Origin: a virus
Virus record (IMG/VR): IMGVR_UViG_3300010396_000011
Span: 1 to 64,000 of that record
DNA length: 64,000 nucleotides
Strand: one strand, 5' to 3'
Position numbers and translations under genes: made by a program. The notes beneath the pieces are model-generated. The model was not told where the DNA came from. It saw only the letters and a program-made list of their open reading frames with translations, and did no database searches. Positions 17,045 to 38,210 of this stretch are shown here, one piece after another (position 1 is the first letter of the stretch; the number at the start of each line of letters is the position of its first letter).

Positions 17045-17073
17045 ACCTTTCCCGCATAAGATCCGCACCAGCC

Positions 17074-18249: not shown

Positions 18250-18770
18250 GCGCTCCCAATATGACGGCGTGGCTGAGCGCGAATCTCGAGCTATACCAGG
18301 ACATTCTTCTGTGTCTCTCGGAGTTTGAAGACGCGTTTGATCTGCCGACCGCTGTAGGGCCGCAGCTCGATATCTTGGGAGCGATTGTCGGACAATCCCG
18401 TACGGTTCTCTTTCAGCCGAGCGGCGGCATCAGCCCGGTGCTGGATGACGACACCTACCGCCTGTTGTTGCAGGCGCGCATCGCCCAGAACCACTGGGAT
18501 GGGAAAATCGCTAGCCTACTGGCAATTTGGAACGCGATGTTCCCCGGCGGAACGCTCGTTGTTGACGATCACCAGGATATGACGGTGGATATCTTCGTAT
18601 CGGGTGCGTTCACGAGCATCATTCAGGATCTGATTCTGAACGGCTACATGCTCCCGCGCCCGCAGGGCGTGCTTTATAACTACTCGCTCGCGGATCTGCC
18701 CATGCTCGGGTTCGACCGCGACGATGCCTTTGTAAGTGGGTTCGATTCTGGAAAGTGGACTGGGAGTTAA
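18246..18770 (+). CDS. DUF2612 baseplate protein
   Basis: A 174-residue protein with LPTAVGPQLDILGAIVGQSR and DDDTYRLLLQARIAQNHWDG, diagnostic for DUF2612. This family follows gp47 in simple contractile-tail phages and probably forms the outer wedge or fibre attachment. It is separated from gp47 here by two adhesin-like genes. It overlaps the upstream gene by 4 bp (ATGA). Confidence 0.8.
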   Translation: MSAPNMTAWLSANLELYQDILLCLSEFEDAFDLPTAVGPQLDILGAIVGQSRTVLFQPSGGISPVLDDDTYRLLLQARIAQNHWDGKIASLLAIWNAMFPGGTLVVDDHQDMTVDIFVSGAFTSIIQDLILNGYMLPRPQGVLYNYSLADLPMLGFDRDDAFVSGFDSGKWTGS

Positions 18771-18774
18771 GTAA

Positions 18775-19665
18775 ATGCTTGGAACCTCTAATATTCTTCA
18801 GTGGAACCCATCCGGCTCAAACATGGAGCCGGACTCCACGTATGCGGCCGATACGCAGCGATCCGGAGGCGCGACAACCGCGGCCATCTTCGGATCTCCG
18901 GTCGGCAATAAGCTTTTCTATCAGGTATCGACAGTCTGCGCGGCATTCTGCGCGATGATGGCGGCGAAGGGCTACACCATCTCCGACTCCAGCCTTTCCG
19001 CGCTCACCGCGGTCATGATGAACGTGAAGACTTCGGCGGATTTCCCGTCGTCGATCCTGTCTATCGCGTACGCCACGTCAGTCACCTTCGACGCAACCGC
19101 CTCCGAAGGCTTTGACCTGATTCTCACGGGCAACGTATCAGCCTCAACCCTGACGGGCACCAGTCCGGGGCAACTACTCACCTTTGTCTTCGCGCAGGAC
19201 GCCACGGGCGGCCGGACGTTCGCCTGGCCAACGAATGTCATCGCGCCCGGTGCCGTTTGCCCATTCGCCAGTTCGGTGAGCATCCAGGTATTCAAGGTGC
19301 GGGCGGGCGGCACGATCATTCCCGTCGCGCCGATGCTCTGGATATCGGCGGCGGGGGCCATCATCCCGCAGAGCGCGGCCGTGGTCGTTTCCGTGAATTC
19401 CAGCGGAACGGTCGCCTCGGGATTTTCCGAGATCACCGAAAAGGTGGATGCGAGCGGCGGGGCCATCACCCGCACTCTGTACGCCGGGATAGCGGCGCAT
19501 ACCGGCCTGAAGGTGAACGTCAAAAAGATGGACAGCAGTATCAATTCCGTGACGATCGCCGGTGCCGGATCGCAGGGCATCGACGGTTTCCCGAGCATCA
19601 CGATTTTCCGGCAATCCGACTCCATCACCGTGCAATTCGACGGCGCGAACTGGATCATCATCTGA
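18775..19665 (+). CDS. Tail fibre-like protein
   Basis: A 296-residue protein after DUF2612. N-terminal NILQWNPSGSNMEPDSTYAA and KLFYQVSTVCAAFCAMM resemble the anchor domain of environmental phage fibres. The middle strand series (FDATASEGFDLILTGNVSAS, GQLLTFVFAQDATGG) and the C-terminal VQFDGANWIII are typical of a fibre knob. Role in adsorption inferred. Confidence 0.55.
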   Translation: MLGTSNILQWNPSGSNMEPDSTYAADTQRSGGATTAAIFGSPVGNKLFYQVSTVCAAFCAMMAAKGYTISDSSLSALTAVMMNVKTSADFPSSILSIAYATSVTFDATASEGFDLILTGNVSASTLTGTSPGQLLTFVFAQDATGGRTFAWPTNVIAPGAVCPFASSVSIQVFKVRAGGTIIPVAPMLWISAAGAIIPQSAAVVVSVNSSGTVASGFSEITEKVDASGGAITRTLYAGIAAHTGLKVNVKKMDSSINSVTIAGAGSQGIDGFPSITIFRQSDSITVQFDGANWIII

Positions 19666-19672
19666 GGTCTAA

Positions 19673-20347
19673 ATGAGCTTTCTCGGCGGCAGAATTCAAA
19701 AGCAGCAAGTCTTCACGGGCAGCGGCACGTTCTTGCTATCAACCCTACTGCAACAGGCCGGAGGATGGGTGACCGTTCTCGCGGCCGGCGGAGGTGGTGG
19801 TGGCGGTGGCAACTTCGGTGGCGGCGGCGGCGGCGGGCAAGTCATTGAGCGCGTGGTCCAGGTATCTGGGTCATCGGTTTCCGTCACAATCGGTGGCGGC
19901 GGCTCAGGCGGCGCCAATGGCCTGCCCGGCAATCCAGGCGGACAGACCTCCTTCGGTCCATACGTCACGGTTACGGGCGGGCGCGGTGGGGACGCCTCCG
20001 GCAACGGCGGAAACTGCGGCGACGGAAGCGGTGGCGGTTTTGGAAGCACTGCTGCGGGCGCTGGCGGAGGCGGAGCGGGCGGTGCCGGCGGCAACGCGCA
20101 AGTTGGGTCTGGCTTCGGCTCAATATCCGGCGGCGGCGGGATTGGGCTCAAAGGATTCGGCGGCGGTGGTGGCGGTGGTGGAACCCCAGGCCCGGGAAGT
20201 TGCGGAGGCGGAACGGGGGCGAGCGGGACAATACCGCCAACAAGCGCTACCGCCAATAGCGGATCTGGCGGCGGTGGAGCGAACCCAACGTACAACACAG
20301 GCGGAAACGGTGGTAGCGGCATCGTGATCGTGACGTGGTGGGAGTAG
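19673..20347 (+). CDS. Glycine-rich tail-tip adhesin
   Basis: A 224-residue protein that is very glycine-rich, with blocks such as GGGGGGGNFGGGGGGG and GGGGSGGANGLPGNPGG and an ending GNGGSGIVIVTWWE. The composition and the closing IVTWW motif are common in phage polyglycine adhesins that bind outer-membrane receptors. It differs from the gene at 17074 by lacking the Ser-rich repeat tail. The reverse strand is also open here because of the GGN codons; that is a shadow. Confidence 0.55.
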   Translation: MSFLGGRIQKQQVFTGSGTFLLSTLLQQAGGWVTVLAAGGGGGGGGNFGGGGGGGQVIERVVQVSGSSVSVTIGGGGSGGANGLPGNPGGQTSFGPYVTVTGGRGGDASGNGGNCGDGSGGGFGSTAAGAGGGGAGGAGGNAQVGSGFGSISGGGGIGLKGFGGGGGGGGTPGPGSCGGGTGASGTIPPTSATANSGSGGGGANPTYNTGGNGGSGIVIVTWWE

Positions 20348-20350
20348 ACG

Positions 20351-20803
20351 ATGGCTCAACAGACCTTTGCAATTCTGTCCAACGGTAAGGTGGCGAATAT
20401 CATCTCAGCGGAGCCCGACGTTGCGGCGCAGAGCTTTCCGCAGGCCGTCCGGATCGACAATCTGAGTCCGACGCCGGGAGTGGGATGGACGTACGCGGCA
20501 GGAGTGTTCGCATCGCCGTACTCTACCGCTCCACAGCCGTTTCCAACGGTGTTCTCGAAATTCGCGTTCCGGTCTCTGTTCACGCTTTCAGAGCTAATGG
20601 GAATCGACAACTACGCCAGCAACCAAACCCTCACCGACGATCAGCGGGCGACCCTGAACACCATCACAAAGAACTTCGATGTTTCTGAATCTATCGACGT
20701 CACCGATCCCGCAACACAGTTCGGAGTGAACTATCTCGCGTCCGCTGGGCTGATCAGTGATACGAGAGCAGCCATCATCCTCAGAGGACAAGGCCCCAAC
20801 TAA
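20351..20803 (+). CDS. Small protein after glycine-rich adhesin, unknown
   Basis: A 150-residue protein beginning 3 bp after the adhesin stop. QTFAILSNGKVANIISAEPD and GVGWTYAAGVFASP resemble the N-terminal strands of tail fibre assembly or fibre-cap proteins. The C-terminal half is helical (FSKFAFRSLFTLSELMGIDN). It may chaperone or cap the neighbouring adhesin. Not certain. Confidence 0.5.
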   Translation: MAQQTFAILSNGKVANIISAEPDVAAQSFPQAVRIDNLSPTPGVGWTYAAGVFASPYSTAPQPFPTVFSKFAFRSLFTLSELMGIDNYASNQTLTDDQRATLNTITKNFDVSESIDVTDPATQFGVNYLASAGLISDTRAAIILRGQGPN

Positions 20804-20827: not shown

Positions 20828-23800
20828 ATGAAAAGAATTCTATCTCTTGTAATCACCGCTGCGTGCACGCTGCCGGTCCTCGCGCAGCAGCCTCCGACGA
20901 TTGTTCGGGGCGTGCAGACGTACCAGGAAAGTAAAGCTCCCGCCACTCCGCCTAGCCCCGGCTACGGCAACGTATGGTTCGACGCGCAGGCGCACAAGTA
21001 TTACGTGCAGAATTCCGATGGCACGATATCGCAGTCCGTCGCGGCTGTTTCCGCGCTGCCCGCGCATTGCGCCGTTGGCGACCTCGCATTCCTGACTACG
21101 GGAAGCGTCGGGCTGAACGCCTGCACCGCAATCGATACGTGGACAGCCGTAGGGATTGGAGCTGGAGGCGGTGCCAGTGGCCAATACTCTACAGCTTCGG
21201 CCTCGTACGCCGCTGGCACATACTACTTCGCTCCGGGCGGTGGATTGGCGGCAAATTCCACCCGCGCAAATGTTCAAACCGTACAAGGCGGAGCCGGTGC
21301 CATTAGCAATTTTGCGGCGACGGTGGTCCCCGCTCTCGGCGCTGGCGTAACCGCGGCGTTCACTTGGTTCGACGGATCGACTGGCCAAGTCGTGACCTGC
21401 ACGATAGCAGCGCTGGCGCAGTCCTGCTCGGACGTTACGCATAACTTCAGTTACGCGGCTGGCGACTCCATCTCTGTGCAGATGGTGGTTGCGGGTGGAT
21501 CCTTCTCTGGAACGGTAGCGATGTCTTGGGCCACAGGCCAGGTGGGACCGACTGGACCAGCCGGTCCAACTGGGCCGACCGGCCCCACCGGATCCACTGG
21601 CCCGACAGGCCAGACTGGACCAGCAGGGCCTACCGGCGCCACCGGACCAGCGGGCGCGACCGGACCCACTGGAGCAACCGGTCCGTCCGGACTTCTATCC
21701 GGCACGCTCGCCGCAATTCCCGCTACCTGCACGGCTGGCGCGTCTCTGTACCAGGCCACGGATCAGCCGACCGGCCTTCAGGTTTACGCCTGCACATCGA
21801 CGAATACCTGGACACGAGTTGCGTATTCTCAAGGGTCCAGCAATCCGGCGACGTGCTCTGTCGGGCAGATCTTCTTCAATACGAGTTCGTCCGCTGGATC
21901 GAATCTGCAACTCTGCACTTCTTCTAATACATGGACGCAGGTGAGCGGAAGCGGCGGTGGTGGCTCGGGAGCTTCCGGCATCGCCTCCGCAAACTTCAGC
22001 ATCGGAGCGACCTCAGTCACGATCAACCACAATTTCGGCACGTTGAGCCACGCGGTCTATTGCACGGATGCTGCTGGCAACTCGTACGGCGGAATCCCCG
22101 TGAATGGCGTCAACTCGACGGTAGTGACGTTCTCTGTGGCCACCACCGTAGCGGGGCAATGTACCGCAGTCGGTGGCACGGGCTTCTCGGGAACGTTCAC
22201 CGTTTCCACTCTGCCAGCGACTCCCGCGACCGGAGCGCTGGCGGTAATCACGGATGGCAACACCACTTGCTCGACAGGCGGCGGTAGCACGGTAGCACTC
22301 TGCCGGTACTCCGGCTCAGCCTGGCAGACGATCAGCGGCGGCGGTGGAAGCGGCCTCGCGGACCCCGGCAGCAACGGCATCGTTAAACGCACGGCGCTGA
22401 ACACAACGGCCCTGGCTGTGGCTGGAACTGACTATCAAGTCCCGCTCAACATCTCCCTCAATGGAGACGGCACGAATACCGCTACGAAGTCTGTGACTTG
22501 GGCATCCGCCTACAAACCGACCTTCAGCGGAGGAGCAACCACCACTTGCGATTTGAGCCAATCGAACCTCTGCGAAGTGGACTTCGGCGCTGGAAATACG
22601 ACACTCGCATTTACCAATCCGCACGGCAGCGGGCCATATTGGCTGCGCTCGTGTCAGGACAGCGTTGGCGGCAGAGCGTACACGTTCGCCGGCACGATGA
22701 AAGGCTTCGTGCAGCCTGACCCGGCAGCGGGTACCAGCAATTGCACAGAGCAACCGTTTACGTACGACGGCACGAACTATCAGGGTGGAACTTCGGCTGT
22801 CCCAACGAGCGCATGGCACGGAGTAAGTTCCCCCGAGGGAAGCGCTCCTACTGCGACATCCGGCTCCGACATCATCTACGCCGATTCCGCCGCGCACCGC
22901 TTCAAAATGACGAACAACGGCGGGACGGCGGTTCAGGTCGTTGGCTCTGGAGTCGACATCAACGCGTCGGATCAGGTGACCTCGACGCACCTCTCTGCTG
23001 GCTTGCCGCGAGCGCAAGGCGGCCTGAGCTCCGCGAGCCCCGGCACGGGAATTCTACGGGATGGCACCACGCCAACGGCTTCTGAGTTGAGCGGGGACGC
23101 GACTACATCCGGGTCAAATTCCGTAACCGTGGCAAAGGTCAACGGGACGAGTGTCCCCACGAATTCCGTAGCGGATCAGTTCCTTGGAACTACAGCATCG
23201 GCAACCGGAGCGTGGGCGTCGATGCCGAATTGCGGGGATAGCTCCCACGCACTGGCGTACAACACTTCGACCCATGCTTTCAGTTGTCAGAGCGTAACGG
23301 GCGGGACCAGTTCTCCACCAAACTTCCCGGTCAACCCCCAGACTACCACCTACACTGCAACAGTAGCCGACTTCACGAATTGCAAGGTAATTTCAGTAGC
23401 GTCTGGGACTTTTACCGTGACGCTTGTAGCGAGTGGCTCTCAGCCATCCAACGGCCAATGCGTCTGGGTCGTGAACTACGGGTCGGGCGTTGTCACGCTC
23501 GCAAGAAACGGGCAAAATATCAATGGCGCAGCGGCCAACTTGACGTTGCCAGCGGGGTCGGCGTCTGCTCCCACCGGGGCGTTCGTTGTCTCGGATGGGA
23601 CAAACTACTTCACGCAGCCGTTTGGAAGCGGCGGCACAGCCACAGTGCAGCACGCCATTCCTTTCGTAATAGACGGCGGCGGTTCACCCATCACAACGGG
23701 CGCGCTGAAGGATTTCCCAACGGCGGCATTCTCCTGCACCATCAACCGAATTGACATCTCGGCGGATCAGGCGGGCTCAATCACGATCGATATTTGGAAG

Positions 23801-23995
23801 GCGGCGGGTGCGATCCCGACATCGGCCAACAAGATTTCCGCATCGGCACCGCTGACTCTTTCTTCCGCGCAGTTGAATCAGAACGGATCGCTGACGGGCT
23901 GGACTACCGCAGTAAGCGTTGGGGACGTATTCGGGTTCAACGTGGCGACAGCCAGCACGGTAACCCATGTAGACGGCCAAATCTGGTGCCAGTAA
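20828..23995 (+). CDS. Large exported collagen-like fibre protein
   Basis: A 1055-residue protein with a clear Sec signal peptide ([20 protein letters not shown]). It then carries repeated modules with paired Cys and a Trp (for example [13 protein letters not shown], then [24 protein letters not shown], then [11 protein letters not shown]). A collagen-like Gly-X-Y stretch lies around residues 240-290 ([17 protein letters not shown]). Long Ser/Thr/Gly beta regions follow. Fibre architecture suggests adsorption, but the signal peptide and likely disulfides suggest export from the lysogen or infected cell. Ribosome site AAGGAAGG. First gene of the exported island. Confidence 0.55.
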
Positions 23996-24006
23996 GGAGA
24001 CGCCGC

Positions 24007-25212
24007 ATGAAGAAACTCATCTCTTTCGTTCTTCTGTCAATGACGTTGCTCGCCATCGACGTGAACCGTATCCGGTTTGGCTCTCCAGTCGAAGTCGGGA
24101 CCGACAACTCTACGCCGACGTTCACGGCGGTATCTCTGAATAGCACGAGCAATTTTCTGGCGTGGATCTTTCCCGCGCCAAAGAGTGAAACGGCTACTTC
24201 GTTTTTAATCCGGCAATCGAGCGTGACCGGGACGCAGCCGCAGTACCGTGTGTCTCTGCAAACCGTTGACGGAAACGGCAACGCGAGCGGCACCATCCTA
24301 GCGGCTGGCGCTTACACCTCCGCGGGTAGCGGCGCGAATAACACTTTCGTTTCCATCGGGACACTTTTCGACGCCTCTGGCACATCCCTGCCAAGCGGAA
24401 TCGCCGTCACGCGCGGCACATACTACGCGCTCGTCATTGACCCGTGCCCGAACTCGACCGCTCCATGCTCCGGCGCGGCGACTCCAGATGCAAGCGACTT
24501 CACCGCGTTCAGCTCGGTGGTTACGGGTATCAATTCCGGGGCGACAGTCGGTCAGTCCCCGTATTCCGAAACATGGAACGGGACGACATGGACGAAGAAC
24601 ACCAGCCAGCCCGTCTATGGCTACCGCACGAGCACCAGCACGACGCGCGGATTCCCGATTCAGTCGATTCAGTCAACCACCATAAACCAGGGAGCCGAAA
24701 CCGGCATCCTGCTCAATTTGCCAACTGGCTTCTGCTCTACCTTCCAGGTGGCGGGTATCCACTTTTGGGGAACGGCGGCGATTGCGGCCAAGACAATGGA
24801 CCTCACCGTGTACAACGGGACAACCGTAGTCGGGGCCACTACGGCTATCGACTCCGATTACGTGCGCACCCCAGGATCGTTCGCGGCAGAGATTTGGTAT
24901 TTTACTGACGCCACTCTACCAACCCTGAACTGCGGCACGTCTTACCGCATCGGCCTTGCGCCGGCCGGAGGAGGCAGCGAAGCATTCTTCGTCCGTGCGC
25001 TCAACTTCCCCACGGCGCAAGACCGGCTGGCCTTCCCCGGTGGAGACTGGTTTGCCTACACGAGCCGGACGGGATGCACGGGAGCGTGTCCCGGAAATAC
25101 CACGGCGTGGACCGACGACACCACCACGCGGCCAGTGCTCAATCTGATATTCGCCGATATCACCCCGCCTGCCGGATCTGGAGGACAGCGCTCTTATGCC
25201 ACGATTCGCTAG
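24007..25212 (+). CDS. Exported protein of unknown function
   Basis: A 401-residue protein. ATG 24007 is chosen because it follows AAGGAG and begins a signal peptide (KKLISFVLLSMTLLAIDV); the frame upstream is open only inside the preceding gene. The mature part is beta-rich, with FLAWIFPAPKSETATSF, YYALVIDPCPNSTAPC and LNCGTSYRIGLAPAGGG. Several Cys could pair outside the cytoplasm. It overlaps the next gene by 17 bp, so the island is translated as one unit. I do not recognise the family. Confidence 0.6.
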   Translation: MKKLISFVLLSMTLLAIDVNRIRFGSPVEVGTDNSTPTFTAVSLNSTSNFLAWIFPAPKSETATSFLIRQSSVTGTQPQYRVSLQTVDGNGNASGTILAAGAYTSAGSGANNTFVSIGTLFDASGTSLPSGIAVTRGTYYALVIDPCPNSTAPCSGAATPDASDFTAFSSVVTGINSGATVGQSPYSETWNGTTWTKNTSQPVYGYRTSTSTTRGFPIQSIQSTTINQGAETGILLNLPTGFCSTFQVAGIHFWGTAAIAAKTMDLTVYNGTTVVGATTAIDSDYVRTPGSFAAEIWYFTDATLPTLNCGTSYRIGLAPAGGGSEAFFVRALNFPTAQDRLAFPGGDWFAYTSRTGCTGACPGNTTAWTDDTTTRPVLNLIFADITPPAGSGGQRSYATIR

Positions 25213-26230
25213 GCTAGCGCTGCTCGCGTCTCTATCCGTCGCGCTGTTCGCTCAACCTCCAGCGACCTTCACCGTTGTCGTGTGGAATGACATCCACACC
25301 GATTCAGCGGGCAATACAGTAGCGGGCGGGCACATCCGCGATTGGATCGTCGCCAACAAGACAGCACGAAACATTACGGGATTCCTGTCGGCGGGCGATG
25401 AAATCGCGGACCCCTTGAGCGCGACGGGCCATTGGACAGATGTCGTCGGGCTCCTGACGGACATCCACAATGCCGGAATTCCAGTGGTCACCGCGCTAGG
25501 CAACCACGACGTGGCATTCTTTTCGGCCCCAGACTCCTCGCAGTGGAATTTCTATATCGCACCCCTGAATGCCGCGTGGGCATCGCACGTTTCCAGTTCG
25601 CATTTCACGGGCGGTCTCGCTTCGGCGAACGAGCAGAATGTGAACGTCTACTTCCCGTGGGACGTTGTGACCGCCTCGGGAACTATCCATCTTGCAGGGG
25701 TCGCGGTGAACATGAACGCCGCGCATGGAGATATTTCCGACGTGCGCGCATTGATGGATGCGGACACAACCCGCCAGTACATTCTGACGACGCATATGTT
25801 CGTGTCAACGCGGGACGCCTCAAATAATCCAGTGGCGGCGCATACCTGCCTGTACGGCGAGGAATTCTGCGTTGCGACCAACGCTGTCGGAGCGCAAGAT
25901 GCCGTGGATATGTGGGCCGACTTCTCGGCCAATCCTCGGATTCTCGCAATGATGTCGGGCCACGAGCACTTGCAGGGCTTCTACACCATGGCTGGCTCTG
26001 GCCCGAATCCCGTGATCGCGATGGAGAACTTCAATGCAGCACTCAACGGCGGAACGTTCACCATCCTGAATTTTCGTCCGGCTGACCGCAAGATCGATCT
26101 CATCAGTTCGCAGTGGAACTCCGGCACGAGCAGCTTTAACGAGACCACGCTCGGCACCTATGACTGGACGCCGATTCTATCGTCCGCATCTTCCTCCGCG
26201 CTGTACGGCGGGGGCCTGACTGTGCACTAA
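25196..26230 (+). CDS. Exported calcineurin-like metallophosphoesterase
   Basis: A 344-residue protein with a signal peptide (PRFARLALLASLSVALFAQ) followed by a complete two-metal phosphoesterase motif set: DIH (Asp32, His34), GDE (Asp68), GNHD (residues 102-105), TTH (His200) and GHEH (residues 255-258). All expected metal ligands are present, so it should be active. Substrate unknown; nucleotides, phospholipid heads or surface phosphates are possible. The neighbours are exported fibre-like proteins in the same operon. Such an enzyme is unusual among tail genes. The stop overlaps the next ATG. Confidence 0.8.
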   Translation: MPRFARLALLASLSVALFAQPPATFTVVVWNDIHTDSAGNTVAGGHIRDWIVANKTARNITGFLSAGDEIADPLSATGHWTDVVGLLTDIHNAGIPVVTALGNHDVAFFSAPDSSQWNFYIAPLNAAWASHVSSSHFTGGLASANEQNVNVYFPWDVVTASGTIHLAGVAVNMNAAHGDISDVRALMDADTTRQYILTTHMFVSTRDASNNPVAAHTCLYGEEFCVATNAVGAQDAVDMWADFSANPRILAMMSGHEHLQGFYTMAGSGPNPVIAMENFNAALNGGTFTILNFRPADRKIDLISSQWNSGTSSFNETTLGTYDWTPILSSASSSALYGGGLTVH

Positions 26231-29157
26231 TGAGACTGCTTTACCTGTTGCTGCTATCTCCCGGCATGCTTTTCGCGCAGTTCGCGCAGGGCTGGACGCA
26301 GATATCAGGGACGACCATTTCTAGTGCTGTTGCGCCAACAGGATACCTCGGCTCGGTATGCCCCTCGCCGAGTACGAGCCTCTGTCCGGCCGGATCTCCC
26401 ATCCCGTTCTCCGATCCGATCCGCATCAACGCGCTGATATTGGCGTGGAATGGCGCCGTGTGGGATTCACTGCACAAGCAGATGATACTGCCGGCGGGTG
26501 GCGGTCACGATGACGGGTTCGATAATTCAGCCTTCGGTGTGAAAACCAGCGGTTCTGTGTCGAGGCTGGTCGGCCCATCAACCAACATCGTCGGAGGGAT
26601 CTTTCCCGACGTAGACGCCAATCCAGACGGTACTCCTGTTTCGCGGCACACCTATGACGGGATTGCGGAGATGGGCTATCGCTCTGGCTACTTCGTAATT
26701 GCGGAAGGCTCGACTTACCCCAACGGGCAAAATCCCGGTGGTCTTTGGCTGTTGGATACGAATCAATCGCCAGCCGCCTGGACGTCGCTAAGTAAAACTG
26801 GGACGCCGCCTGGAATTGCAACCGACACTCCGTATTCCTCGCTCGTGTGGGACTCCGTAGCCAATCGCCTTCTGCTCTTATATAACGGGGCTCTGTATGC
26901 CGTGACAGTGAACGTCTCTACGGCAACCGCAACCTTCACGCGACTCTCCAGCGGATCGATGAACGGCTACCAGCCGACATGCGAGATTGACCCGGTGATG
27001 CGCACTCCGATCGGCACAGCGAGCGCGGGACGGTGGATGGTTTGCATCGGGGACGGATACTCGGATACCCCGCCTGGGACCTTCTACATTCAAGCTACCG
27101 ACATTTCGGGCAACGATCCCACCTACACTCCACTGACATGGACAAGCAACGCCAACGGGACGTGCGACGGGCTGCATAACCTTTCCGGCTCGCAAGGTGG
27201 ACCAGGCTTTTCCTACGATGATGCACTCGGGATGATCGTCGGATACCCAAACGCCGGAGGCAATACGGTCTATGCATACTCCACGGTGACACAGCAATGC
27301 ACCGCTATAGCCTTCCCCGGTGGACCGGCAGCACAACAGAATCTGGATGGTAATTATCACGGAACGTTCGGGCGGTTCCGGTACGTGCGCGAAGGGAACT
27401 ACTTTGCGACGGTCCTGAGCGCTGTCGGGAATGCCTACGTGCTCAACCTCGACTCTCCCATTCCCGGCCTCGGATCCTCAACATCTACGTGCATAGATGC
27501 AGACGGTGACGGGTACGGAACCGGCTCGGGGTGCCTGGGGCCGGATGCCAACGACCAGGACGCCACGATTCACACTGCCGCACAGGCCATCGGGAAGTAC
27601 GGCAGCATCGACGCGACTTTCCAGTTACGGAATTACCATCCAACCCGCTACTGGACAGTCGATCCCGCATCCGGCAACGACGGAACGGGTGCGTCTTGCA
27701 CGCCCGCGAATTTGGGCACGGGCGGTGGATCGGACTGCAAGCCGTACCAGCATTGGTCCGCGCTCTCGGGCTCGGTTGCGGCGGGCGATGCTGTGGTGTT
27801 TCGCGCGGGCACGTACTCGTATCCTGTCACCATTGTGCAGGGCACCTCCTCTGCCTCCGTCTACTATCTGACTTACCCCGGAGAGTCGGCGACGTTCGCT
27901 GCTTACCCGAATTACTGGACCGTCATCGACAAGGCGTATTGGGTAATCGACGGACTCAGATTTGACGGCCAAGGCGACAGCACAAGCGGCACTGGCTGTA
28001 TTGTCGGCGGCACTGGAGATCTGCAATCGGGTTCGACGCAGCATGATTTCATCGTCCGTAATGTGGAGTGCAAAAACTGGCTGAACGGCCCGTATATGTT
28101 CAACGGTCTCCAGAACGGGCTAATCGAATCCAGTTCATTCCACGACATGACCGGAAGCCACGGTATCTATCTCGGATCGCGTGCCATGGTCAGCAATAAC
28201 ATCACGATTCGGCGCAACCTGCTGTATCGGAATTCCCGTTGCGGTGTGCAGTTCAACGGCCGCGTTTCGGACCTGCACATTGAGCAGAACTACGCATATC
28301 AAAACGGCATCGTGGATGGTGGGGACGACATTTGCTTAGAGAACGGCGTGCACGATTCCTTCATCCGCGGGAATGTGTCTCTCGGATCGGCATTCGGCAT
28401 CACGATGAACACGTACGACGGGAGCGAGTTCGGCGGCGTGGGCTCATCCAGTAATTGCGGAGCGGCGCAGAATCAGAACTGCACATGCGGGGCGAGCCCC
28501 AATCTGTTTGCGATTTGCGCCTTCAGCGAATTCAATAACCTGTTCTCGAACAACACGGCGGTCAACACCGGCCAGGACGTGAACGGAGCGGATATTTCCG
28601 GCAACCCGCTCTATCAGATCGGGAGACAGCCGACCGATTGCACAACCGCGACATGCCTCGCTACTTCGTTCCCGAACAATACGTGGCAGAACATGGTGAT
28701 TCTGTCGAAGGGGCTGGCGAGCTTTGCGCCTCCATGGACCTTCACAGGAGGAACCACCGCCCCTGAGTCCGGCCCTACAAACACGCTGAATCAGGTGGTT
28801 TACTTCCAGACTGCGGGGACGGCGGAGGTGGTTGGCTACGGACTACAGGTCGGCTGCTGCGGATACCAGTCCTATTCGTGCGCGGCGGCGGTAAGCGGAG
28901 GGCACATCGGATCGGCCACTAACTGCACGAAGTCCGACCCGAAATTCACCGCGCTCGGAGCGTACAACAACATCGCCGGATACAACCTGCGGTTGCAGCC
29001 GTCCTCCCCGGCGCTAACAGGAGCGATCATCCCCGGATCGCTTCCCATGGACATACTCGGCGCCCCAATAGTTTCTGGATCGCTAGGGGCCTACGAAGGA
29101 ACTGTCGTTGCCATCCCGTCCATCACCTTTGGCGGGAGGGTAGTAATTCATCCCTGA
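26230..29157 (+). CDS. Exported fusion: propeller-like domain, calcium-type motif, right-handed beta-helix
   Basis: A 975-residue protein with signal peptide (RLLYLLLLSPGMLFAQ). Residues about 20-410 have galactose-oxidase/Kelch-like strands (ALILAWNGAVWDSLHKQ, LPAGGGHDDGFDNSAFG). Near 420-440 is DADGDGYGTGSGCLGPDAND, a MopE-like metal-binding motif. From 475 on it resembles parallel beta-helix polysaccharide-active proteins (YWTVDPASGNDGTGASC, WVIDGLRFDGQG, NNITIRRNLLYRNSRCG). It may bind or cut a surface glycan. No lyase catalytic residue can be assigned by eye. Confidence 0.6.
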   Translation: MRLLYLLLLSPGMLFAQFAQGWTQISGTTISSAVAPTGYLGSVCPSPSTSLCPAGSPIPFSDPIRINALILAWNGAVWDSLHKQMILPAGGGHDDGFDNSAFGVKTSGSVSRLVGPSTNIVGGIFPDVDANPDGTPVSRHTYDGIAEMGYRSGYFVIAEGSTYPNGQNPGGLWLLDTNQSPAAWTSLSKTGTPPGIATDTPYSSLVWDSVANRLLLLYNGALYAVTVNVSTATATFTRLSSGSMNGYQPTCEIDPVMRTPIGTASAGRWMVCIGDGYSDTPPGTFYIQATDISGNDPTYTPLTWTSNANGTCDGLHNLSGSQGGPGFSYDDALGMIVGYPNAGGNTVYAYSTVTQQCTAIAFPGGPAAQQNLDGNYHGTFGRFRYVREGNYFATVLSAVGNAYVLNLDSPIPGLGSSTSTCIDADGDGYGTGSGCLGPDANDQDATIHTAAQAIGKYGSIDATFQLRNYHPTRYWTVDPASGNDGTGASCTPANLGTGGGSDCKPYQHWSALSGSVAAGDAVVFRAGTYSYPVTIVQGTSSASVYYLTYPGESATFAAYPNYWTVIDKAYWVIDGLRFDGQGDSTSGTGCIVGGTGDLQSGSTQHDFIVRNVECKNWLNGPYMFNGLQNGLIESSSFHDMTGSHGIYLGSRAMVSNNITIRRNLLYRNSRCGVQFNGRVSDLHIEQNYAYQNGIVDGGDDICLENGVHDSFIRGNVSLGSAFGITMNTYDGSEFGGVGSSSNCGAAQNQNCTCGASPNLFAICAFSEFNNLFSNNTAVNTGQDVNGADISGNPLYQIGRQPTDCTTATCLATSFPNNTWQNMVILSKGLASFAPPWTFTGGTTAPESGPTNTLNQVVYFQTAGTAEVVGYGLQVGCCGYQSYSCAAAVSGGHIGSATNCTKSDPKFTALGAYNNIAGYNLRLQPSSPALTGAIIPGSLPMDILGAPIVSGSLGAYEGTVVAIPSITFGGRVVIHP

Positions 29158-29165
29158 GGAGACTT

Positions 29166-30752
29166 ATGAAAGCAGTAATTCTGATTCTGATTGCAACGGC
29201 GGCTTTCGCCCAGACCACGACCAACGGAAGCACAACGGTAATCGGCGGCCGGGTGAACAACTCTGGCGCTGCGGCGACCCAACCACACCGGACGGGCACG
29301 GGCTCGCCAGTCGGTAGAGACGCCTGTTCGTTCGTTGGAGAAACCTATTTTCAGTCCGACGCGACGGCCGGATCGAACGTCTGGGCCAGCACCGCCACGG
29401 GGACTCCGTGCACATGGAGTTTGCAGGGCGGCGGGGCTGTTGCCGCCTCACAGTTGAACACGCTACAGGTGACGCGCACAAGCCCCACGGTCCTCACCAT
29501 CGGCGCGAACTGCTCCACCTCCACGCCCTGTAATGTTCAGGCGGGGACGAGCGTATTATCGATCGTCACGAGCGCGACGGCAACCATCTCAAGCGGAAAC
29601 CCCACGGCCCGCATCTGGGTCGATAACACCGGAGCGGTAAATGTAGGCTACTCCACTTCCTCGGGCGTGGCATGCGTCAACGCGACCTGCGCGCCGAGTA
29701 TATCCAGCTTCTCGAATTCCGGTATTGCTCCGACGTGGCAGTGGGTATCCAGCACCACGGCAGGCCAGTGGGACGCTGCTGGTGGAACAGACCTGCGCTC
29801 GGTGTACCACATTAGCAAGGTAGTCTCGGCGACCGGACCGGCCATGAGCGCCTCTCAAACTCCGACAGGAACGACCGTCACTTACTCTCCCACCAGCAAC
29901 ACGAACTCGGCGCTTGAAACGTGCGCGCCTGCATCCGCGAGCGGTACGGCGTACGTGTGTTCAACTTCTCCTACCTTTACGCCGGTAAAGGGGAGTCGCA
30001 TTATCTTCCAGCCAGACGTGGCCAACACCGGAGCGGCAACACTCGCTGTCAATGGCGCATCTGCCGCATCGATCACCAAACAGGCTGGAGCGGCGGCACT
30101 CGTCGCTAACGATATCCTGGCCTCTCCCGCAGAGTACACCTTGGTTTACGACGGCTCAACTTGGGAAATGCAAAGTCAATCCGGCAATGCTTCTGGAGGC
30201 ACAGTCACCGGCCCGGTGTCTTCGACTACCGGCAACGTGCCGCAGTTCGCTGACACTTCTGGTAAGGTCCTTAACGGCGGTTTGCCCGTCACTCAGATAG
30301 GCGCTAACTCATCGCTGGTTGAGACGGACTCCTCTGGTGATATCGTCACCGGGGCGGGCGGCGCAATCAAGGTAGGTGGCGTTTCGGGCGTCGCCGTTAT
30401 CGCGGCAAGCGGGAATATGATCCCGTATTTCCGCATCGCCTTCGGCAACCTGGACACTGTTACTTGCACTGCTGGCGCCGCATCGCTATCCACGAATTAC
30501 ACGATCCACCGCGTAGACCTGAATAACCAGACATCGTGCGCGATCACTTTCACGGCAGCCTCGCAGGCGCAGCAGATAGCCACAGTATTGCTGTGCAACG
30601 GTGGTACGACCGCAACAACAAGCATCACCTGGACGGGAGTTAAAGGCGCGACGGCGGCTGGTGGAACAACGGGACAATGCGCCCTCCAATCGTTCTATTA
30701 CGACGCAACTAATTCTGTATGGTATGGAGCGGGAGCCGGTACATGGAACTAA
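29166..30752 (+). CDS. Exported fibre-like protein
   Basis: A 528-residue protein with signal peptide (KAVILILIATAAFAQ) and a ribosome site (GAGGAG) before ATG 29166. It is rich in Thr/Ser/Ala/Gly strands with paired Cys (CSTSTPCNVQAGTSV). The C-terminal part (TVTCTAGAASLSTNYTIHRV, then LQSFYYDATNSVWYG) resembles the knob of environmental phage fibres. It combines fibre-like composition with export, as does 20828-23995. It overlaps the next gene by 10 bp. Confidence 0.55.
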   Translation: MKAVILILIATAAFAQTTTNGSTTVIGGRVNNSGAAATQPHRTGTGSPVGRDACSFVGETYFQSDATAGSNVWASTATGTPCTWSLQGGGAVAASQLNTLQVTRTSPTVLTIGANCSTSTPCNVQAGTSVLSIVTSATATISSGNPTARIWVDNTGAVNVGYSTSSGVACVNATCAPSISSFSNSGIAPTWQWVSSTTAGQWDAAGGTDLRSVYHISKVVSATGPAMSASQTPTGTTVTYSPTSNTNSALETCAPASASGTAYVCSTSPTFTPVKGSRIIFQPDVANTGAATLAVNGASAASITKQAGAAALVANDILASPAEYTLVYDGSTWEMQSQSGNASGGTVTGPVSSTTGNVPQFADTSGKVLNGGLPVTQIGANSSLVETDSSGDIVTGAGGAIKVGGVSGVAVIAASGNMIPYFRIAFGNLDTVTCTAGAASLSTNYTIHRVDLNNQTSCAITFTAASQAQQIATVLLCNGGTTATTSITWTGVKGATAAGGTTGQCALQSFYYDATNSVWYGAGAGTWN

Positions 30753-33700
30753 CCAAGCGGCTGGTTCTCATTCTGTTCTGCGCGTTCGCGGCGCGTGCGG
30801 CGAGTGTCGCGAATCTTGCCGTGCAGATTTCCAACACTCAGGCGATTCTGTCCTGGGACGCCGTAGATTACATCGGCTCCTGCGCGGTGACCGTGAGCGA
30901 GTCAGCCTCGATGACGCCGGTGGTGCATGACGTAGACGAAACGTTGTTCACCGCATCGAGTTCCGATGCTCGGTTTCCGCGGCTACGGGCTGGACAGCAT
31001 CGCACCTTCGTGGTGGGTACGCGGACAGTGCAAGTGGGAAACGACGGGCACAACTACAGCCGTGCCCTTCAGGCCGATACGATCCACTATGTTACCGTGA
31101 CGTGCGGAACGGCCACCGCCACAATTTCATTCCGTACGGCCACGATCCCGTACGGCGCATCGTTCGGCGAGCAGCCCGTGGTGAATCCGGCGCACGATGG
31201 GACGTATCTGTACCCGACGTGGCTTATTGACACTGGCGGATTAACAGCCCGCACCAGCGCGCTGAATCGGGTCATCGAGCCGCACACTGGTTTACTGACC
31301 AAACCGTTCACGCTCTCCACCGATCCGAACGCCGCAGGAACCGTCAATATGGGGTCCTCGGGCTGGCCGGATATGTGCTATCCGCAGACGGTTTCGCTCA
31401 ACGACGGAACGCCGGGGTACCAGTGCGTTCACCAATTCCTGACGGGCACGAGTTCATCGGGGCTCTATTGGGTCAACCCTGCGACTGGCGATTCGCGCTT
31501 TCTTACCTACCTCACGGCGCAGTACGGGCCGCCGGATATCGGATATGCAGGGCACTACTTTGGAGCGCTCGCGCCGCCTATGGACTTCACCGCTGGCGGG
31601 AATACCTTCTACACGCAGCTATCCTCTAGCGTGGACACCACGGGTTTAACGTGGGTATTTTTCAAGGGCACGTACACCGGACATTCGGTCGCCGGACAGG
31701 ACTCTGACCACACGGGGCTCAACTGGTCCACCACCACTCCGGCGACCACTCTGCATTTCGCGTCAAGCCCGACCAACCCGAACTCCTGCGGGGCTGATCC
31801 GAATGATTTGTCGGTGTGCATGCTCGAACCATGGACACGCGACATCAAAACTTTGATCGCAGAATTGAATCCGGCAATGGCAAATATTTGCCAGCTAACG
31901 GGCGACAATCACGGCGGCGCGATCGAGACTCCGGGCAACGGCATTATTGTGCTGCGCTGTTTCACTTCTCAGGACGACCCCGGTTGGATTGCGGTGTTCG
32001 ATGTGAACCGGACGGCTGCACAGCAGACTACCAAACTCGGTAGCGCGGCGGGGTGCATCGACAATCCCGCCGTTGCGAGCGGAACGAACATCGCCGGGAA
32101 GACCGGCTGTTTCATCGCGGTCACGGGAACTCTGCAAAGTGGCGCGGAATCGCCGCTCCGGTTTGCTACGCTGCATCAACTGGCCGTCCTTCGCGCGACT
32201 GCAAATTTCGGATCGATATACATTTCGACGAACACGCTCCGCAATAAGCTGGGCAACGCCTATCAGGTCACGCTTAGCTCAGCGATCCACAGCGCCTCTG
32301 GTGACCCCACGACCGGCGATTGGGGGCCATGCACGATGACGCAGCCCGTGGGAAACAATCTGCGGAACTGGCCTACTTCATCGTCTTGGGCGGATGGGTG
32401 CACGTACGCTACCGTGACCGGACTCAGTTCGACTTGGAGCGGCACATCATCGGCCTTGTTCCCAGCCAACATCACAATACACGAAGGGGACGTGATTATC
32501 ACTAACTCCTCAATGGCCTCCCCGCAAAAAGAACCGATGCGTATTTTGAATATAGACCCGGATGGGCACACTCTGTACTTGCAGCGGAGTTACGGTTACG
32601 GCAGTTCGCAACTCGGGGCCAACGGGCATATGGAAATCGCCAGCGGCACTGCGATGGACATGATGCCAGATGCTATTTATCCGGACACAAATAACACCGG
32701 ACTGGCCGCTATGTGGTGGGACTTCAATAACGGGCCGCTGGTCACCAACCAGCAGACCGTTTACATCGATCCCGAGCCGGTAGTTCACAACACCGCACAG
32801 AACGCCATCTCATGCACCGGATCAGACTGCCCCAAAGACAACCGTTGGACCTGGGCGGATTACGCGCAGGGCGGTGGGGAATTCGCGCGACTGACGAACG
32901 TGCCGTTTGCCAACAGTGTCCCGACGCCATCGATCTTCTTTCAGTCCGGCCTGGCCGCGCCCTACAAGTTTGCAAATACAGCCAACCAACTGGAAAGCCA
33001 TCCGAACCTCAGCGTTACGACGGGTACGGCTTTCGCGTTCAACCAACTCATCGACGTGCATCCGTTTTTCGGCAACCCGCCCACTCCGCTGCTTGCGGCG
33101 ACATTGGCGAGCGGCGCCACGCAGGTCTACAAGATCCCGGCTACCGGCTCTGTCGTCGCTACGGATTATAAATGGATGACCTGGATCGGCACGAGCGGCT
33201 GGCACGCCATGAGTGAGCTTTCCGGCCCATCGGTGATTCTCACGGATGCGAACGCCTATCAGTGGTGTGTGGTTCTGTTTGCCGGTGAGTGTTACACGGG
33301 ATCGGCAGTCGGAGAAATCTACTTCAATGCTCCTAGCGTCGCCTTATTAACCTGCGATAAAAGTTGGAGCCAGAACATTGGTGACGGCGGCGGTATAAAT
33401 GCCATTAGGGATATTTGCATATCGCCACTGACGGCCGATTTCCAGGCAATCAAGACGCAGGACATGGTTGCAGACCCCCTCGGCAGCCGGTCGCGAGTTC
33501 TATCCAATGCGTTCCTCTGGCCAAAACTCGACTCAATTTTCCACAACGCCAGAATGTTGCCGGATGGCTCCTGGGGCTTCACGATGTTTGAGGATTCCCA
33601 ACTCCACCTATTCAAAATCCCTGTGCGGCACATCGACAGCATCAACCGCGCGGCCTATGTCCCCGTAGACGTGACGGTCCAAGCTGGCGTGGCGTCAAAC

Positions 33701-33973
33701 GCAGTGGTGGAATTTGGCTACGCCGAGAACGGGACACCCGCGAGCGGGCAATTGTATTGCACGGCGAGGCAGGAAAACTGCGTAGCTCAATCAGCAACCG
33801 TGACGCAAGCGTCTCCATTCCTGTGGGCTACTACCGAGACGCACACCGGCATGTCCTGCTCCAGCGGCTGCACGATTAAAGTTCCCGGCATTAGCGGGCG
33901 GGTGCTCTGGTATCGGACGAACAACGCCGCATTGACGGCACCCGGACCGCTGCAAACAACAGTAGTGCCGTAA
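30743..33973 (+). CDS. Very large exported protein with fibronectin-like N-terminus
   Basis: A 1076-residue protein from ATG 30743. An earlier GTG at 30719 would place eight residues ahead of the signal peptide (ELTKRLVLILFCAFAARA), so it is rejected. Residues 20-130 resemble an Ig/fibronectin-type domain (VANLAVQISNTQAILSWDAV). The rest is a long beta-rich region with several Cys and Trp (GHYFGALAPPMDFTAGGN, MWWDFNNGPLVTNQQ), perhaps a propeller. No enzyme motif is recognised. It is the last gene of the exported island, and its 3' end overlaps the convergent PEP-CTERM gene by 83 bp. Confidence 0.6.
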   Translation: MELTKRLVLILFCAFAARAASVANLAVQISNTQAILSWDAVDYIGSCAVTVSESASMTPVVHDVDETLFTASSSDARFPRLRAGQHRTFVVGTRTVQVGNDGHNYSRALQADTIHYVTVTCGTATATISFRTATIPYGASFGEQPVVNPAHDGTYLYPTWLIDTGGLTARTSALNRVIEPHTGLLTKPFTLSTDPNAAGTVNMGSSGWPDMCYPQTVSLNDGTPGYQCVHQFLTGTSSSGLYWVNPATGDSRFLTYLTAQYGPPDIGYAGHYFGALAPPMDFTAGGNTFYTQLSSSVDTTGLTWVFFKGTYTGHSVAGQDSDHTGLNWSTTTPATTLHFASSPTNPNSCGADPNDLSVCMLEPWTRDIKTLIAELNPAMANICQLTGDNHGGAIETPGNGIIVLRCFTSQDDPGWIAVFDVNRTAAQQTTKLGSAAGCIDNPAVASGTNIAGKTGCFIAVTGTLQSGAESPLRFATLHQLAVLRATANFGSIYISTNTLRNKLGNAYQVTLSSAIHSASGDPTTGDWGPCTMTQPVGNNLRNWPTSSSWADGCTYATVTGLSSTWSGTSSALFPANITIHEGDVIITNSSMASPQKEPMRILNIDPDGHTLYLQRSYGYGSSQLGANGHMEIASGTAMDMMPDAIYPDTNNTGLAAMWWDFNNGPLVTNQQTVYIDPEPVVHNTAQNAISCTGSDCPKDNRWTWADYAQGGGEFARLTNVPFANSVPTPSIFFQSGLAAPYKFANTANQLESHPNLSVTTGTAFAFNQLIDVHPFFGNPPTPLLAATLASGATQVYKIPATGSVVATDYKWMTWIGTSGWHAMSELSGPSVILTDANAYQWCVVLFAGECYTGSAVGEIYFNAPSVALLTCDKSWSQNIGDGGGINAIRDICISPLTADFQAIKTQDMVADPLGSRSRVLSNAFLWPKLDSIFHNARMLPDGSWGFTMFEDSQLHLFKIPVRHIDSINRAAYVPVDVTVQAGVASNAVVEFGYAENGTPASGQLYCTARQENCVAQSATVTQASPFLWATTETHTGMSCSSGCTIKVPGISGRVLWYRTNNAALTAPGPLQTTVVP

Positions 33974-34583: not shown

Positions 34584-35339
34584 ATGACACACGGAATACG
34601 AAACGCTGGCCCCGCATCGTGGGCCGGAGCGGTTGCTATTCTTGCGGTCGGATGCTCCCTGACGCTCGCGGCACTCGATGGTCGCGCGTTCATCAAGGCG
34701 CAGAACGGCAAAGCGGAGCGGGCCGACGTGCAGTGGCAGGCGCTCGCGGATCGGCACGCACGGCAGATCGAACAGGATCTACGCCTCCGCGAAGACGCGG
34801 CGGTCTCCGGGATATCTGCCCTCCACGCCACCGTTGACGCGCAACTGACTGGATTTCGCTCCGATCTCACGCGCGAATCATCCGCCTACCGCGGCGCACT
34901 CCTGATCGCAGTTGGGATGCTGGACCGGCGCATAGGGCAGGGTCTTCAGATCAGCGACGCGCAGTTGGCCGGATTTCGCGCGGATGTGAAACCCACACTC
35001 GTGAATGCAGCCGCGCTGGAAGCCACGTACACCGCCCTGCCGGATCGTCTCGCATACGCGAATCGCTGGCTGTGGGATTGTCACGAATTCTCAGGCTGTC
35101 TGCAATCTCAGACGCTGGCGCTGGTCGGCTCAACGCGCTACACCCTCGGGCGCGTGGCGAAAGCGTCGGACGCCTTCCCTGAGCTTGTGCAGGGTATCGG
35201 AGGCATGGCGGCAGACGGTCATGCGTGGACCCGCAAATACGTCATGCCGCACCCGATGAAGGTCGGGGACTACTTCAAGGCGGCCGGCAAGGCCACGCTC
35301 GGTGTCGGCACAGCGGCGTTGCGCGGCGGGGTGTTCTGA
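34584..35339 (+). CDS. Membrane-anchored helical protein, unknown
   Basis: A 251-residue protein. A hydrophobic segment at residues 11-32 (WAGAVAILAVGCSLTLAAL) is followed by a long helical, coiled-coil-like part (ERADVQWQALADRHARQIEQ) and a repeated motif (DAQLTGFRSDL and DAQLAGFRADV). The C-terminal part is basic and Ala/Gly-rich. It opens the lysis/accessory block. Its stop directly precedes the GTG of the next gene. Function not recognised; envelope-located by topology. Confidence 0.55.
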   Translation: MTHGIRNAGPASWAGAVAILAVGCSLTLAALDGRAFIKAQNGKAERADVQWQALADRHARQIEQDLRLREDAAVSGISALHATVDAQLTGFRSDLTRESSAYRGALLIAVGMLDRRIGQGLQISDAQLAGFRADVKPTLVNAAALEATYTALPDRLAYANRWLWDCHEFSGCLQSQTLALVGSTRYTLGRVAKASDAFPELVQGIGGMAADGHAWTRKYVMPHPMKVGDYFKAAGKATLGVGTAALRGGVF

Positions 35340-35549
35340 GTGTCCAACTACTGCCACATCCTCAACAAGCCGCCCGTAATCGCGACGAACTACCGCGAGC
35401 GGCAGGAAATCTGCGCATCATGCGGGGCTGAATTCACGAAACGCGCGGGCAATCAGGTTCGCTGCAAATCATGCGCGGAGGCGCGGGCGGCGAAGCTGGC
35501 GAAGTCTGCCCTTCAGCGCTCGCGTGCGAAGAAATCACTTTCGAAGTAG
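35340..35549 (+). CDS. Small zinc-ribbon protein
   Basis: A 69-residue basic protein starting at GTG 35340, next to the upstream stop. CASCGAEF (CxxC) and VRCKSCAEAR (CxxC) form a four-Cys zinc ribbon, followed by a Lys/Arg/Ala helix. Likely to bind nucleic acid or protein. No family assigned. Confidence 0.6.
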   Translation: MSNYCHILNKPPVIATNYRERQEICASCGAEFTKRAGNQVRCKSCAEARAAKLAKSALQRSRAKKSLSK

Positions 35550-35569
35550 CACCCCAAAGGAGAAGCACC

Positions 35570-35716
35570 ATGGACCTATCGACACTCGCAAACGCGGCGG
35601 AATCGGCTCTTTCCACTTACGGTAATAGCCAAACCGCCGTCACCAATGACCAAGCAACCCCCGGCCCCTGTTCCCGCTGCCTAACCAACACCTCACTAAA
35701 ACCGAAAAGGAGCTAA
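35570..35716 (+). CDS. Hypothetical 48-residue protein
   Basis: A strong AAAGGAG site lies 7 bp before ATG 35570. The product has a helical N-terminus (DLSTLANAAESALSTYG) and a C-terminal CSRC motif. Too short to classify; called on ribosome site and spacing between neighbours. Confidence 0.5.
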   Translation: MDLSTLANAAESALSTYGNSQTAVTNDQATPGPCSRCLTNTSLKPKRS

Positions 35717-35722
35717 CCGACT

Positions 35723-36025
35723 ATGAACGTTATTGCAATCGCCTTACTCGCCATGGCCGCCGTCCAGCAGCAGCCCCAAAAACAGGCGGACGGCATAAAG
35801 CCGAAGATCCTCAGTATCGAAATGGTGCCCAGCGACGCCGAACTTCTCCCTCCCGCCTGCAAAGACGTTGCCAGCGGAGGATATCTGCACTTGGACGAAC
35901 TCACCCCTGAGCAAGTCGGGGAAAGCGTAATCGAGCTTTCCAAGAGTGGCGCGGAAATCAAGTTGTGGGGCGTCGTCAACAATCGGATCTTCGTATCCAC
36001 CAGATGTCCGAAGCCGACTAAATAG
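35723..36025 (+). CDS. Small exported protein, unknown
   Basis: A 100-residue protein with a short signal peptide-like start (NVIAIALLAMAAVQQQ) and AAAAGGAG upstream. The mature part has IKPKILSIEMVPSDAEL and a helix (TPEQVGESVIELSKSGAEI). One of several small exported proteins in this block. Not recognised. Confidence 0.55.
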   Translation: MNVIAIALLAMAAVQQQPQKQADGIKPKILSIEMVPSDAELLPPACKDVASGGYLHLDELTPEQVGESVIELSKSGAEIKLWGVVNNRIFVSTRCPKPTK

Positions 36026-36069
36026 CCGAACCGCGCGGCGTGCTTCGGTGCGCCGCGCACCTCCACAAC

Positions 36070-36975: not shown

Positions 36976-36998
36976 TACCGCATCAAAAAGGAGCAACT

Positions 36999-37361
36999 AT
37001 GAAAGCATATACGCCCACTTGGGATACGCCTGTCGGCATTCAGTTCAACGGTCAGCCGTCAGGAGTTTCCGTCAATCCGAAACTCTGCCTGACGCCCGAA
37101 AGCGCGGTTGAGCTTGCGGCTTTATTCCCGCAATACATCTCCGCAATCACGTTCGAGTTTCCTTCCTCGCTCGGCGGCGCGTTCTCGTTCGAAGCGAGCA
37201 GCAACGCACACGGCGGAAAGGTGCCGTGGTTTAACTATGTCAACGGCACGAAGGACAACGCGGCGAATGTCGCCGGGATCTTCGACCACGGGTTTCCGAT
37301 TGTCAACGCTCTGCCTTGGGCTCTGATGCAGATTCAGGGCGTGATGGACGCCGGAGAGTAG
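36999..37361 (+). CDS. Hypothetical 120-residue protein
   Basis: A strong AAAAAGGAG site precedes ATG 36999. The protein has TPTWDTPVGIQFNGQPSG at the start and a middle strand-loop region (ITFEFPSSLGGAFSFEASS). The longer upstream frame lies inside the patatin gene and is a shadow. No family recognised. Confidence 0.6.
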   Translation: MKAYTPTWDTPVGIQFNGQPSGVSVNPKLCLTPESAVELAALFPQYISAITFEFPSSLGGAFSFEASSNAHGGKVPWFNYVNGTKDNAANVAGIFDHGFPIVNALPWALMQIQGVMDAGE

Positions 37362-37365
37362 GATA

Positions 37366-37608
37366 ATGATGCGGCAGGCTCTAATCCTCGTGGTGGCGCT
37401 TGCCGCATCCGCCAAGGCCCCCTGGGAACTAGCCAACGGTTACGCCGTGGTCTACAACCAGTGGGCCGCGATGCGCAACGAGCGCGTGAACGATCCAGCG
37501 AAAGTCGGCACCGTATCAGCGAAAGAATTTCAACTTTGGCAGCGCGTGAAGTCCGCTAGGCGCGCATTCGAAGATGCCATCGACGCGGAATATCGCGGCG
37601 AACGGTAA
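37366..37608 (+). CDS. Small exported helical protein
   Basis: An 80-residue protein with a signal-like start (MRQALILVVALAASAKA) followed by a charged helix (KEFQLWQRVKSARRAFEDAI). It begins 4 bp after the previous stop. A periplasmic accessory or spanin-like role is possible but not shown. Confidence 0.5.
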   Translation: MMRQALILVVALAASAKAPWELANGYAVVYNQWAAMRNERVNDPAKVGTVSAKEFQLWQRVKSARRAFEDAIDAEYRGER

Positions 37609-37647
37609 AACGTCCCGCAAGTAAACCAACCGCACAAAGGAGATGTC

Positions 37648-38169: not shown

Positions 38170-38210
38170 AAGCTACTTGGGAACCCGGTTGTGCATCGGT
38201 TCAACACGAT

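Follow-up and report, generated by a model that had tools for sequence, protein, structure and literature searches.

Six consecutive genes for predicted Sec-exported proteins, in part related to exported host proteins, extend the tail operon of a phage most likely infecting Bryobacterales

Directly after the tail-fibre genes of the virus IMGVR_UViG_3300010396_000011 lie six genes for large proteins (P1 to P6; Table 1), each with a predicted Sec signal peptide. The reading that we favour, with moderate confidence, is that they form a late cassette of Sec-exported, disulphide-stabilised, fibre-like proteins acting in the exopolysaccharide or envelope layer of Bryobacterales; here we infer export itself, late timing, the place of action and a function in the matrix or in adsorption. 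As judged by homology, the cassette is a mosaic: P5, P6 and half of P4 belong to exported host protein families, and P1 combines a collagen fibre and a C-terminal domain of virion-structural type. The block (20828-33973) takes up 13.1 kb of the 67.8-kb genome (approximately 19%), agreeing with the fifth at which the initial annotation had put it.

Table 1. Features of the window; the arrow marks the predicted signal peptidase cleavage site.
Feature	Position	Strand	Length (aa)	Cys, mature protein	Cleavage site	Parts and matches
Tail-fibre genes	16634..20803	+				No signal peptides; directly 5' of the block; phrog_863 and phrog_587 types
P1	20828..23995	+	1055	22	VLA↓QQ	Signal peptide; three C...CTxxNTW modules; collagen repeat; C-terminal virion-structural-type domain
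P2	24007..25212	+	401	6	LLA↓ID	
P3	25196..26230	+	344	2	LFA↓QP	Signal peptide; calcineurin-like metallophosphoesterase (PF00149, 7e-6, 27 bits, cutoff 21.5)
P4	26230..29157	+	975	24	LFA↓QF	Signal peptide; ~400-aa N-terminal domain; DxDGDGYG...GPDANDxD motif; putative right-handed β-helix
P5	29166..30752	+	528	12	AFA↓QT	Signal peptide; module (aa 1-270) homologous to first protein of host pair; extra C-terminal half
P6	30743..33973	+	1076	22		Signal peptide; large, mostly β protein homologous to second protein of host pair
ORF convergent with P6	33891..34499	-				Signal peptide; PEP-CTERM-like tail (TIGR02595, 9.2 bits, cutoff 16)
Membrane/signal-peptide genes	34584..39075	+				Genes at 34584, 37366, 37648 and 38557, between block and lysis genes
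Patatin-like phospholipase	36070-36975	+				No signal peptide; between block and lysis genes; PF01734, 5.7e-20
Soli_cterm exported protein	41791-42924	-				Host-type gene (TIGR03437); closest relatives in Bryobacterales

The window (bases 1-64,000 of the 67,817-base virus record) has genes for the portal, head protease, major head protein, tail sheath, tape measure and baseplate in its first 17 kb, and an integrase, RecT and DNA methylases are encoded farther along, past the tail-fibre genes. The methylases include a C5-cytosine methylase followed by a D12-class adenine methyltransferase (52442-55142). Because it has this set of virion genes, tail sheath and baseplate included, together with an integrase, the phage is a myophage with an integrase, and it is probably temperate. 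The virus contigs are of metagenomic origin and their hosts uncultured. A member of the Bryobacterales (Acidobacteriota) is the most likely host: the initial assignment to Acidobacteriota is supported by the Soli_cterm gene, by tail sheath homologues in three Bryobacterales genomes and by the homologues of P5 and P6 described below.

Signal peptides were called with our own rule set (charged n-region, hydrophobic core and -3/-1 rule) rather than SignalP, and genes with a home-made caller. All six block proteins have the n-region, hydrophobic core and small residues at -3 and -1 expected of Sec substrates cut by signal peptidase I, as against none of the 25 upstream virion proteins. Genome-wide, 11 of 77 genes were positive, as were 1.6% of shuffled N-termini. 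With 11 of 77 positive, six given neighbours would all be so with a probability of 2e-6, a figure that tests clustering and not export itself. Among the controls, lambda Lom was positive, and the fibre proteins of lambda, Klebsiella phage Mulock, Bordetella phage IFTN9 and Bacteroides phage B40-8 were negative. This simple rule-based check upholds the Sec signal that had been read at each of the six starts, the site in P2 being the weakest. Most of the cleavage-like motifs are followed by glutamine, as in an exported host protein pair (below), and no convincing lipobox was seen by eye in any of the six.

The paired cysteines noted at the outset were likewise found, with an even number in every mature protein (Table 1). 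Cysteine makes up 2.07% of the mature block proteins and 0.62% of the virion module, a 3.3-fold enrichment. Across nine further phage contigs, cysteine reaches 1.84% in signal-peptide proteins of at least 150 aa against 0.82%, and 23 of 28 signal-peptide proteins have even counts. Signal peptides and cysteine pattern together are what folding in an oxidising compartment would lead one to expect, and the predicted export of the block proteins via Sec is well supported by their sequences.

The six ORFs stand as first described, but the run of predicted exported proteins extends beyond them, as signal-peptide genes were also found at 34584, 37366, 37648 and 38557 and, on the opposite strand, at 33891 and 41791. 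The ORF at 33891 can be compared with the PEP-CTERM/EpsH system, which is an exopolysaccharide-associated sorting system (PMC1569441). Despite its signal peptide and PEP-CTERM-like tail it falls below the family cutoff, and the family label was rejected; the six block proteins have no such tail. An analogous ORF in another phage (L176, 14077-14781, minus strand) is also convergent with a P6 homologue and combines a signal peptide with such a tail, again scoring too low for the family. The two ORFs encode 202 to 234 aa and are otherwise unrelated in sequence.

P5 and P6 matched no known family, but homologues of P5 were present in 64 and homologues of P6 in 50 of 250 Bryobacterales genomes. In the host loci that were fetched, a P5-like gene (approximately 280 aa) and a P6-like gene (1200-1500 aa) are adjacent and in the same order as in the phage. 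Both encode signal peptides, and phage genes of this type are absent from their surroundings. This pair is unnamed and was found in the present analysis. Gene order, close spacing, signal peptides and conserved cysteines are common to the phage and host pairs, at identities of 26-38% for P5 and 23-37% for P6. Phage P6 is shorter than its host counterpart, and phage P5 has an added C-terminal half, as do some host copies (L160, L161 and L163). Unlike most host copies (14 of 19), the phage genes lie within a tail operon and not beside exopolysaccharide genes.

The exopolysaccharide exemplars (asparagine synthase-type amidotransferase, glycosyltransferases, UDP-glucose dehydrogenase, flippase and acyltransferase, with identities confirmed by Pfam) were present in 14 of 19 host pair loci, or 8 of 13 once donor loci were omitted, and in none of 20 control regions, almost all of which came from one genome. 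The enrichment is genuine, although how large it is stays uncertain because the exemplars were mostly drawn from the tested loci and because two loci, L174 and L142, look like one cluster. In an unrooted tree of P6, two phage copies fall apart and that of the window joins a host copy at 100/100. The phage copies make up no single clade, which indicates that phage and host have exchanged P6 at least twice, in either direction since the tree is unrooted. The AlphaFold model of P6 had a mean pLDDT of 62.6 and gave no convincing match in Foldseek; a PDB sequence search returned no match for P6 or P3.

The C-terminal, putative β-helix half of P4 is homologous to two exported Bryobacterales proteins, one of which sits among glycosyltransferases. 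P4 matches the β-helix family PF13229 at 2.3e-4 (21.2 bits, below the cutoff of 25.9), and a host homologue (L146) reaches 47.9 bits. There was also a weak match of P4 to polysaccharide lyase family 6 (1.3e-3); its AlphaFold model (pLDDT 35.8) was unusable. In an exported Bryobacterales protein (L162, 3293-6046, minus strand), one segment is 39% identical to a phage tail-fibre protein (window 18775), indicating that fibres and exported host proteins share modules.

That the six genes are consecutive and tightly packed or overlapping behind the tail fibres is clear from the spacings of +11, -17, -1, +8 and -10 nt from P1 to P6. P1 starts 24 nt after the last tail-fibre gene, and no gap between the baseplate genes and the end of P6 exceeds 29 nt. 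A moron would have its own promoter and terminator, separate from the late operon. A promoter scan gave 7 hits (6.2 expected from shuffles), which is chance level with a consensus that may not fit Acidobacteriota, and a terminator scan gave 13 (15.4 expected), no excess.

These results bear on the proposal in the initial annotation that the block serves lysogenic conversion, that is, that proteins made by the prophage alter the surface or matrix of the lysogen, for example by masking receptors. The phage does have an integrase and RecT, the host homologues adjoin exopolysaccharide genes, and a presumed precedent is lambda lom, a tail-fibre-region gene for an outer-membrane protein that may alter the lysogen surface, for example by masking receptors. 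Like the block genes, lom encodes a signal peptide and lies among tail-fibre genes; however, it is a single gene of 206 aa and not fibre-like, whereas the block encodes six large proteins. The genome also has, on the opposite strand, a host-type Soli_cterm gene (41791) that is nearer to a classic conversion gene than the block. Against lysogenic conversion, gaps of no more than 29 nt and scans at chance level leave the block with no independent promoter or terminator, with the same reservation about the Acidobacteriota consensus, and late operons are normally silent in lysogens. Since the block extends the tail operon with no gap above 29 nt, we take expression late, with the tail, to be more probable than classic lysogenic conversion, which we regard as unlikely.

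P1 has a collagen repeat (PF01391, 3.3e-8), and the module C...C-T-x(2)-[ND]-TW occurs in three copies in P1 and as a variant in P5, confirming the fibre-like composition (collagen, CxxxxTW) first noted for the block. The C-terminus of P1 matches phrog_35197 (6.5e-16), the virion structural family phrog_10330 (8.5e-10) and a virion structural protein of Synechococcus phage S-CAM1 (9e-5). Virion or tail-fibre families matched by P1 are phrog_366, phrog_5073 and phrog_10330; none was matched by P2, P3, P4, P5 or P6. The virion-structural-type end of P1 and the position in a tail operon count against the reading that we favour, being what one would expect of virion parts. Collagen-like tail fibres of Escherichia coli O157:H7 prophages, which are built on PfN and PfC domains (PMC3368898), resemble P1 as phage fibres with a collagen repeat. 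P1 differs in its signal peptide, which is not among the domains listed for them (PMC3368898).

P2 has no family match. The score of P3 above its family cutoff goes together with the metal-binding motifs DxH, GDE, GNHD, H and GHEH, read directly in its translation, which identifies P3 as a calcineurin-like metallophosphoesterase. Neither P2 nor P3 had a match in the 250 Bryobacterales genomes, which shows little because that set had no positive control.

Searches by tblastn with P1, P3, P4, P5 and P6 of 50,697 GenBank phages gave no match. The initial view that the block has no obvious counterpart in model phages thus holds for GenBank phages, but counterparts were found in uncultivated phages and in one prophage. 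A first contig scan using the sheath alignment gave no relative, and a wide P6 alignment was too divergent for scanning viral contigs. Sheath relatives carry signal-peptide genes within or behind the tail region. In G003 there are three in succession, encoding a fibre-like protein, a protein with DUF2341 and laminin-G domains and a third large protein; in L006 two, one fibre-like and one small, lie between the tape measure and baseplate hub genes; and in the G200 prophage a 762-aa signal-peptide collagen fibre occupies the fibre position. The trait is not universal, as the G255 and G254 prophages have no such genes. In the G255 prophage (L136, reverse strand 11802-14558) the gene in the fibre position encodes a 918-aa protein without a signal peptide, in which a DGVDIDWE motif, as in GH18 chitinases, and FN3-like repeats were seen by eye.

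The unrelated phage L176 (major head protein phrog_371) has a homologue of P6 together with a fibre that bears a signal peptide and one further exported protein. When viral contigs were scanned with the host P5 module, eleven more came up. Ten of them were examined, and in most there are signal-peptide genes, with as many as five in succession, next to terminase, portal, major head or lysis genes; no frequency follows from this because the module itself is linked to signal peptides. Runs of two to five genes for exported fibre-like proteins recur among unrelated phages, and signal-peptide proteins in other phages bear tail-fibre, phage-tail-repeat, BppL_N receptor-binding, collagen or virion-structural modules. 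A related module occurs in a phage fibre without a signal peptide (L204, 9551-12850), indicating that modules move between exported and non-exported proteins.

Some of the proteins could instead be virion appendages finished outside the cell, fibres that leave the cytoplasm through Sec, acquire disulphides as they fold in the periplasm and are joined to virions at or after lysis. The position directly after the fibre genes, the collagen and virion-structural modules of P1, the tail-fibre, phage-tail-repeat and BppL_N domains on signal-peptide proteins of other phages and the two genes between tape measure and baseplate hub in L006 all agree with this. However, P4 to P6 resemble exported host proteins rather than virion proteins, the host copies are not near phage genes, and we know of no tailed phage that assembles Sec-exported fibres. 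We consider this route quite improbable. Still more doubtful is that the proteins are ordinary cytoplasmic fibres, whose hydrophobic N-termini are merely signal-like and act as virion anchors. The cassette lies in the virion region and related modules do occur in fibres without a signal peptide (L204), but cleavage-like motifs in all six proteins, most followed by glutamine as in the host pair, the even and enriched cysteines, the export of the chromosomal homologues and the retention of the signal when a domain of P4 was replaced (below) all argue against it.

A relative, IMGVR_UViG_3300010373_000114, carries all six block genes in unchanged order. Compared with it, dN/dS is 0.12 for P1, 0.07 for P2, 0.08 for P3 and 0.37 for P4, values by which P1 to P4 are under purifying selection; P5 and P6 are 100% identical as proteins. 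DNA identity is 98% in a segment that starts in the 3' part of P4 and runs past P6, as against 90% farther upstream, and this segment has therefore recombined recently. Over the first ~400 residues of P4 (window 26240-27430) the relative has a diverged homologous domain substituted, and a signal peptide is retained despite this replacement (MRLLLFLSVCAASVSA). An ATG and a signal peptide occur at the corresponding place in the relative, which supports 26230 as the start of P4; the start at 26266 proposed by our gene caller was rejected on these grounds. The hydrophobic N-terminus of P2 is likewise retained although its sequence has changed (dS 0.72, dN 0.05). Selection and conservation also led us to reject the block as an ORF artefact. 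Passenger genes, picked up from the host by chance and with no role for the phage, would suit the repeated exchange of P6 (at least twice) and the near-identity of P4 to P6 as one segment in two phages, but with purifying selection on P1 to P4 (dN/dS 0.07-0.37) and similar cassettes recurring in unrelated phages this is the least credible explanation.

Under the favoured reading of a late exported cassette, P1 to P6 would be translated late as an extension of the tail-fibre operon, pass through Sec, be cut by signal peptidase I and become oxidised in the periplasm. Leaving the cytoplasm ahead of lysis, they would already be in the periplasm and matrix as progeny appear. There they may bind or cut surface polysaccharide (P4 by its putative β-helix, P3 as a phosphoesterase) or, alternatively, occupy surface receptors; either would free progeny and keep them from being lost on debris. 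Infected cells and debris would then no longer trap or re-adsorb progeny, and virions would escape the matrix. Candidate functions are matrix binding or degradation, receptor masking, or provision of fibres that are added outside. Remodelling or decoration of the host surface, as suggested in the initial annotation, fits best because P5 and P6 match exported proteins often encoded beside exopolysaccharide genes, whereas the function itself is a proposal drawn from gene neighbourhood and weak domain matches (β-helix below cutoff, lyase 1.3e-3).

Among known systems, the T5 protein Llp is an exported superinfection-exclusion lipoprotein which stops adsorption to infected cells and debris (PMC9586334). 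The likeness is that of an exported phage protein acting at the host surface, as proposed for the block, and Llp is a known case in which loss of progeny on debris is prevented, though by other means. Llp is a small lipoprotein, whereas the block proteins are large and show no convincing lipobox by eye.

Single exported phage proteins are known, but to our knowledge multi-gene cassettes of large, exported, fibre-like proteins in a late tail operon, drawn in part from families that hosts encode near exopolysaccharide genes and seen again in unrelated phages, are not. Acidobacteriota are abundant and poorly cultured soil bacteria. If the favoured reading is true, their phages spend about a fifth of the genome on the extracellular matrix of the host, and if instead the proteins are Sec-exported virion fibres, they would represent a way of assembling appendages that is not known from any tailed phage. 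The P5-P6 pair offers a sequence handle on the host matrix and on how phages cope with it.
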